From Fimbriimonadaceae bacterium (lineage in GTDB: Bacteria > Armatimonadota > Fimbriimonadia > Fimbriimonadales > Fimbriimonadaceae): 48,214 bases of DNA. The stretch covers positions 1-48,214 of the forward strand of contig JALHNM010000013.1 in assembly GCA_022843485.1 (NCBI GenBank), read 5' to 3'. The translations under genes were made by a program, and so were the position numbers. Below, piece by piece: positions 30,021 through 31,096 of the stretch; the first letter of the stretch is position 1; the number at the start of each line of letters is the position of its first letter. The notes below the pieces were generated by a model. That model worked only from the letters and a program-made list of their open reading frames with translations, was not told where the DNA came from and made no database searches.

Positions 30021-30138
30021 TGCGCTCGCTGCGCTCGCGGGGCGAGCAAGCTCGCTACTCCAGAGCGAGAGCGAGCTCTCGCACTCCGCGACGAGAGCGA
30101 GCTCTCGCACTCCGCGACGAGAGCGAGCTCTCGCAGTG
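30021..30138. repeat. 26-bp tandem repeats with internal hairpin
   Basis: Almost three direct copies of a 26-bp unit (starting at 30067, 30093 and 30119), each with GAGAGC-GA-GCTCTC. GCGCTCGC-rich sequence of the same flavour precedes them (30021-30060). They lie between the start of the carboxylase gene and the end of the FG-GAP gene. Confidence 0.85.
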
Positions 30139-30154
30139 CGGGGTGAGCGGGGGG

Positions 30155-31096
30155 TTAGGGGCGTTTGCCGAGGAAGAGGTAGACGTAGCCCTCGTACCGG
30201 CGTTCGGGGTCGGGCCCGGTGTAGGGGACACAGGAGCCGACCAAGAGGTCGCGCACCCCGTCCCGGTTCCAGTCGCAGACGTGGACCTTGATCCTCGCGT
30301 CGATCTGGAGGGGGGCGTCGCCGACCATGACCGGAGTCCCCGCCGCGAGCTTGCCTCCTCCGAGACCCTTGAAGAACGTCAGGCGGCCCGTGTCGTCACC
30401 GACGAGCAGGTCGAGCACTTTGTCCCCGTCCCAATCGACCGCGACGGGTTGGCTCTTGTTGGCCACCGCAAGCTCTTTGCCCCCGGCTTGGAGGGGTTTT
30501 CGGGGGCCGTACCGGGGCTCCTTCCTGGTCCCCAGGTTCTCGTTCAGGTAGACGAGGCCGCCGATGTTGCCGACCAGGGCGTCGAGTTTGCCCGTGCCTC
30601 GCCAATCGACGAAGAACACGGTGCTGGCCGCCCAGTCCTGGTTCTCGTCCGCGGTCTCCTCGAACGTCCTCATCGGGCCGAACTGAGCCTTGCCGAGCCC
30701 TTTGAACCACACGACGCCCCCCGGTGCCCACTCGCCCGTCGCGATGTCTAGCGTCCCATCCCCGTCTACGTCCACGACCTGTGGAGTAAAGCCGACGCAT
30801 CACCCATAGCTGACGGACGCTTTCGTGCCGCCTGCGGAGAGGTAGGTGTAGCCCTCGAACTTTGGCGCCCGGTCCGTGCCGACGTTCCGGTAGACCCGCA
30901 TTGCCCCGTCGCCGAACTGCCCGACGAGGAGGTCCCGCTTGCCGTCGCCGTCCATGTCGTGCAGCCAGGGCGCGGCGTGGCCGTGGTCGGGCACGATGTC
31001 TTTGCCGCCCGCTTGGACGCGCACCGGCGCCGAGAGCACGGGCGGCCCGGCCGGGCTCGTCGCGAGCAGTGCGATCCAGAGGGGCAGCACGAGCAC
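30155..31096 (-). CDS. Exported FG-GAP/VCBS repeat protein with an internal UGA
   Basis: 313 codons. Signal peptide VLVLPLWIALLATSPAG, then FG-GAP-type repeats with calcium-loop sequences DMDGDGKRDLLVG (about 50), DVDGDGTLDIATG (about 110), DWRGTGKLDALVG, DWDGDKVLDLLVG and DWNRDGVRDLLVG, as in beta-propellers. TGA at 30800-30802 falls in frame between SYG and CVGFTPQ, inside a repeat, and both sides continue the same protein. Options are a selenocysteine codon (a SECIS-like stem follows), a nonsense mutation, or an error. The GTG 31096 start has TACACT 6 nt upstream. It diverges from groES. Surface protein of unknown function. Confidence 0.75.
30765..30802 (-). promoter_or_regulatory. In-frame UGA with SECIS-like stem-loop
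   Basis: UGA (30800-30802), then 9 nt, then a stem UUUACUCCAC / GUGGA-c-GUAGA (10 pairs, one G-U, one bulged C) with loop AGGUC (30776-30780). Spacing and loop agree with bacterial SECIS rules, and the loop resembles that of Escherichia coli fdhF. Confidence 0.5.

Follow-up and report, generated by a model that had tools for sequence, protein, structure and literature searches.

A conserved in-frame UGA predicted to encode selenocysteine next to an invariant cysteine in a family of FG-GAP propeller proteins

Comparative analysis of a 48,214-nucleotide stretch of DNA from a Fimbriimonadaceae bacterium of the phylum Armatimonadota (the whole stretch is referred to here as the window) indicates that an in-frame UGA at positions 30802-30800 of the reverse strand is most likely decoded as selenocysteine (Sec), with a probability that we put at roughly 95%. 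The UGA belongs to a gene for an FG-GAP repeat protein and is followed directly by a codon for an invariant cysteine. Under the proposed mechanism, the ribosome would reach the UGA, a SECIS stem-loop located 14 nt further on would recruit SelB together with Sec-tRNA-Sec, Sec would be inserted beside the invariant cysteine, and translation would run on across the rest of the FG-GAP blades as far as the TAA stop. The gene and the two codons at the core of this prediction are as follows.

Positions 30155 to 31096, minus strand: predicted selenoprotein gene, 313 amino acids, with a GTG start (31096-31094), a TAA stop (30157-30155) and one in-frame UGA.
Positions 30800 to 30802, minus strand: UGA predicted to be read as Sec; UGA is present in 20 of the 22 aligned relatives and UGU or UGC in the other 2, and the Sec machinery is encoded in the genome.
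Positions 30797 to 30799, minus strand: Cys codon immediately after the Sec codon, giving a predicted vicinal Sec-Cys pair; Cys is found here in 22 of 22 relatives.

The reading frame is open from the GTG at 31096 to the TAA at 30155 when the TGA is translated as U, and the UGA is situated between VSYG and CVGFTPQ. Counted from this start, the residue is Sec 99 (Sec 100 in P0003); a GTG two codons further in is a possible alternative start. The product matches PF13517 in three stretches that lie on both flanks of the UGA (E 6.8e-21; 75 bits vs a cut-off of 26.9), and FG-GAP repeats of the same type were found in all 22 family members at E <= 0.001. The original prediction, made from the letters of the window, that a UGA interrupts an otherwise continuous FG-GAP frame between SYG and CVGFTPQ is borne out by this frame, and the PF13517 matches on both sides confirm that the two flanks share one frame and keep FG-GAP motifs; the further claim that Sec directly precedes Cys agrees with the Cys found at the next position throughout the family. 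Inspection by eye revealed a short hydrophobic signal peptide at the N-terminus of the product and lipobox-like sequences in the members L023 and L035, suggesting that the protein is a putative exported one. The description of the product as an extracellular propeller-type selenoprotein is accordingly retained in its selenoprotein part, with 'extracellular' corrected to 'exported'.

The neighbors of the gene in the window are a carboxyltransferase gene on one side and groES/groEL on the other, and they suggest nothing about the role of the selenoprotein. Between the stop codon of the gene and the carboxyltransferase gene, at positions 30057-30147, a unit with a palindromic GAGAGCGAGCTCTC-like core is repeated in tandem, in three copies at 26-nt intervals; no other occurrence of the 27-nt tandem unit was detected in the genome with up to two mismatches allowed.

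The family set, which was obtained by a search of 101 relatives plus named genomes, includes 22 members, and the relatives that share the UGA and the adjacent RNA signal belong to many genera. At the Sec column, the alignment of homologs that had been proposed as a check shows Sec or Cys and nothing else, the Cys genes being L028 and L037, and neither UAA nor UAG nor any other residue occurs at this position among the 22 members. Only two Cys columns are conserved throughout the family, namely the Sec position and the residue next to it. The own genome of the window encodes a second UGA copy (L043, G000:C5:93812-95047), which is longer and carries a helical insert of about 100 amino acids before the last strand; this insert, found in the longer members, is missing in the clade of the window gene (L021, L022 and L023). 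Two of the 20 UGA members (L051 and L052) come from Planctomycetota records, so that the family covers at least two phyla, Armatimonadota and Planctomycetota, if the host affiliation is right. In the genome of the window, the 16S gene is identical to probe EUB338-III at the probe site and deviates from PLA46 in five positions, which, along with the modest number of genomes in the phylum set (291), points to a Fimbriimonadia-like member of Armatimonadota rather than to Planctomycetota. A further UGA member came from a profile search that covered these 291 genomes; it lies in G103, a representative of a distant family of the same phylum, with GUCIG at the Sec site and a CCAC/GUGG stem (L099, G103:C203). 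Around the Sec site this gene resembles the Planctomycetota members L051 and L052, a likeness for which inter-phylum transfer and a binning error are both possible explanations.

In each of the five pairs for which dS could be measured, dN downstream of the UGA is less than half of dS (dS is saturated in another two pairs), and this region is thus coding and under purifying selection. On the unrooted tree the two Cys genes occupy two separate places among the Sec genes and therefore, in the simplest reading, Sec was probably lost twice together with the SECIS and would be the older state; both genomes with the Cys genes retain selA. No gene neighborhood is conserved across the family, and no conserved neighbor points to a substrate; a few closely related loci share neighbors, including the gene for prolyl-tRNA synthetase. 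Searches of viral contigs yielded no relative of the selenoprotein, and searches of plasmids yielded only one weak match, from Nostoc.

The second line of evidence is the conserved RNA element downstream of the UGA.

Positions 30771 to 30785, minus strand: predicted conserved SECIS core, with the stem UCCAC/GUGGA (30785-30781 paired with 30775-30771) and the loop AGGUC (30780-30776).

The stem begins 14 nt and the loop 19 nt downstream of the UGA, the original prediction having placed the loop at about 20 nt. Folding of the single sequence does give the originally proposed stem of 10 pairs with one bulge and an AGGUC loop; taken alone, this structure is not remarkable, with a z-score of -0.17 (+0.35 with flanks) and 79 of 200 shuffled sequences folding equally well, and only the upper 5 bp are conserved. 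Single-sequence folding was therefore rejected as proof of a SECIS, and because it is no better than chance, the proof has to be comparative. In the 20 UGA genes the distance between the UGA and the stem is fixed and free of gaps, and RNAalifold applied to their alignment pairs columns 18-22 with columns 28-32 and nothing else, with 98% of the stem cells paired. One stem pair (columns 21/29) is variable, being A-U in 10, G-C in 9 and C-G in 1 of the Sec genes, and is matched in all 20 of them. Since column 21 falls on the silent third position of a Pro codon that never changes, selection on the protein fails to explain this match. On the tree, six changes are found on each side of the variable pair and six for the pair, that is, they coincide, and the observed covariation score of the stem is reached by none of 500 shuffles. 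The covariation is confined to this one pair, three of the other four pairs being invariant and one varying only by loss, and the independent contrasts on well-supported branches number only 4 (4:0, p 0.125). In both Cys genes (L028 and L037) the stem is broken. Among the four-fold silent positions examined, the two that vary least belong to codons -1 and +3 relative to the UGA, and variation is also low at codon +6. The published bSECIS model specifies an upper stem of 4-16 bp, a loop of 3-9 nt with G in loop positions 1-2, a distance of 16-37 nt from the UGA to the loop and a minimum free energy of -7.5 kcal/mol or lower (PMC13188914). The element in the window, with 5 conserved bp, the 5-nt loop AGGUC at 19 nt and -11.1 kcal/mol for 36 nt, lies within these ranges, and the loop opens with AG or GG in the family.

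The genome of origin (G000; 2.96 Mb, 98.8% complete) encodes all four components of the Sec machinery that the original prediction had singled out for a search, namely tRNA-Sec (72 bits, with a UCA anticodon), SelB (339 bits), SelA (468 bits) and SelD (335 bits). The selD gene itself contains an in-frame UGA near the N-terminus and, after it, a strong hairpin with an AGGUC motif; the SelD of this bacterium is thus a selenoprotein as well (CAGUASKLGP; G000:C1:550246-551208; L018, L019). Among the related genomes, every one of the 15 nearby UGA-form genomes has selA, vs 46 of the 86 others (Fisher p 3e-4, uncorrected for genome relatedness), and the UGA form is absent from all 40 genomes without selA among the 101 relatives. 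Of the 15 UGA-form genomes, 13 yielded a tRNA-Sec, the two misses being genomes that are 77% and 88% complete. As a separate observation, the absence of selA from 40 of the 101 related genomes shows that Sec use is patchy even inside one bacterial family; it has probably been lost repeatedly among these bacteria.

These observations bear on two other explanations of the in-frame UGA. If the gene were a pseudogene or the result of a sequencing error, the TGA would have arisen recently by nonsense mutation or would be a miscalled base in a single assembly, and the window taken alone, with its single-sequence folding at the level of chance, is compatible with this. However, 20 of 22 relatives carry the same UGA; they come from separate assemblies, among them a single-contig genome of the same genus, and the sequence after the UGA is under purifying selection. 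A read-level error at the TGA, which had been raised at the outset, is ruled out by the recurrence of the codon in 20 genes, and we reject both the pseudogene and the error on the conserved UGA, leaving them a negligible probability. Alternatively, a different amino acid could be inserted at the UGA (Trp, following code 4, or Gly, following code 25), or the codon could be leaky without any signal, and a frame that is open through the UGA would suit any such recoding. The relatives that lack the UGA, however, have Cys rather than Trp or Gly, and UGA serves as the normal stop codon in 8 of the 22 family genes, including the second copy in the own genome, so the genetic code itself is standard; Trp and Gly are rejected on these two grounds. 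Moreover, the genome has a tRNA-Sec with the UCA anticodon along with a tRNA-Trp with CCA, and a bacterial SECIS-type stem is conserved alongside the UGA and broken in the genes without it, which makes any recoding other than Sec insertion very unlikely.

The structure of the protein was predicted with AlphaFold2 on the alignment A1 (pLDDT 91.4, pTM 0.89). Five-bladed folds rank first among the structural matches of the model, with GH62/GH43-type enzymes at Z up to 19.9 and mostly 8-12% identity; this likeness in fold is no evidence of a glycosidase function. By sequence profile, the matches are FG-GAP proteins, with CRTAC1 and the PVL lectin being the best among solved structures. The sequence contains five blade starts of the DxDG type, each blade beginning with a strand that leads into D-x-D-G-D-G, and the product is accordingly predicted to be a beta-propeller that is most similar to five-bladed ones. 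Insecticidal Tc complexes, with their FG-GAP region, are among the Foldseek top matches; the likeness lies in the common repeat fold and gives no indication of a toxin. Modeled from its single sequence, the longer copy L043 gives a poor result (pLDDT 44) except for the helical insert. Apart from the Sec-Cys pair, two conserved motifs stand out at the blade entries.

Positions 30977 to 30982, minus strand: Gly 39 - His 40 at the blade 1 entry, invariant (22 of 22 members) and a candidate active-site residue.
Positions 30287 to 30295, minus strand: Arg 268 (21 of 21 members) and Lys 270 (20 of 21), one residue apart (Arg-x-Lys) at the blade 5 entry; both are candidate active-site residues.

Immediately ahead of the blade strands stand residues that are invariant or nearly so: Gly-His (blade 1), Sec-Cys (blade 2) and Arg-x-Lys (blade 5). 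Residues at such positions in propellers point toward the opening of the central channel, which is the usual location of the active site. By sequence register, the Sec-Cys pair may thus be placed directly ahead of the innermost blade 2 strand, at the opening of the channel, with the His of blade 1 and the Arg-x-Lys of blade 5 in equivalent positions.

With SelB/SECIS-dependent bacterial selenoproteins of the E. coli fdhF type, the gene shares the in-frame UGA with a stem-loop directly downstream, G in the first two positions of the apical loop, a loop 19 nt after the UGA, and selA, selB, selC and selD; unlike in these, the protein family and the fold are different and the conserved core of the stem has only 5 bp. 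FG-GAP repeats and DxDGDG loops, present in 22 of 22 members, are features in common with FG-GAP/VCBS propellers such as integrin alpha, the PVL lectin and CRTAC1, which, in contrast, lack Sec. Integrin alpha and PVL are seven-bladed, whereas the model of the present protein fits five-bladed folds best. A vicinal Cys/Sec pair that is able to form a selenenylsulfide is found at the C-terminus of mammalian thioredoxin reductase (GCUG); this pair, however, is part of a flavoenzyme tail, has the order Cys-Sec and is unrelated in sequence to the propeller described here.

Several catalogued selenoproteins (the GxUC CopZ-type and CU-motif families such as SaoL, SaoC, MbdU and KCU-star) also have Sec adjoining Cys, but none of them is an FG-GAP propeller and most have Cys followed by Sec, in contrast to the Sec-first arrangement seen here (GUC[IV]G) (PMC13188914). 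A review of May 2026 lists 119 prokaryotic selenoprotein families or subfamilies, and its table has no FG-GAP, VCBS or propeller entry (PMC13188914). In NCBIfam 20.0 no model scores above its cut-off for the selenoprotein, and the openly available papers yielded no report linking selenoproteins with FG-GAP or VCBS repeats. Decoding follows the standard mechanism; among the catalogued selenoproteins, neither this family nor its fold nor the order of Sec before Cys within it has a precedent.

The vicinal Sec-Cys pair probably forms a candidate redox or metal-handling site outside the cytoplasm. The likeliest function, to which we assign about an even chance, is that of an extracytoplasmic redox site cycling between the selenol/thiol state and the vicinal selenenylsulfide. 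More tentatively, the family could represent a new class of exported selenoenzymes with a vicinal Sec-Cys active site at the mouth of a five-bladed FG-GAP propeller, in which Sec would be older and Cys derived by loss. It is less likely that the pair is a ligand for heavy metals or selenium in a binding or carrier protein rather than a redox catalyst: several of the catalogued selenoproteins with CU motifs bear metal- or mercury-related names (PMC13188914) and no catalytic partner is encoded nearby, but with conserved His, Arg and Lys at the corresponding blade entries the site looks more like a shaped polar pocket than a bare metal trap, and no metal-resistance neighbors were recognized. Still more doubtful is a purely structural role, with a vicinal selenenylsulfide stiffening a platform for a ligand such as a sugar in a lectin-like propeller. 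By sequence, PVL-type FG-GAP lectins do count among the nearest relatives of solved structure, and the folds nearest to the model are those of five-bladed glycosidases; however, retention of the costly Sec for a structural bond would be unusual where Cys-Cys would do, and the tree shows just two replacements by Cys-Cys.

Adhesion or binding is the role usually ascribed to FG-GAP propellers, and the long-kept Sec-Cys pair points to chemistry in them outside the cytoplasm; if the protein is indeed an enzyme, FG-GAP propellers would carry redox catalysis. Without recoding, annotation splits or truncates these genes, and the family is therefore likely to be mis-annotated in many genomes. Finally, the family provides an additional test case for the export of Sec-containing proteins by bacteria.
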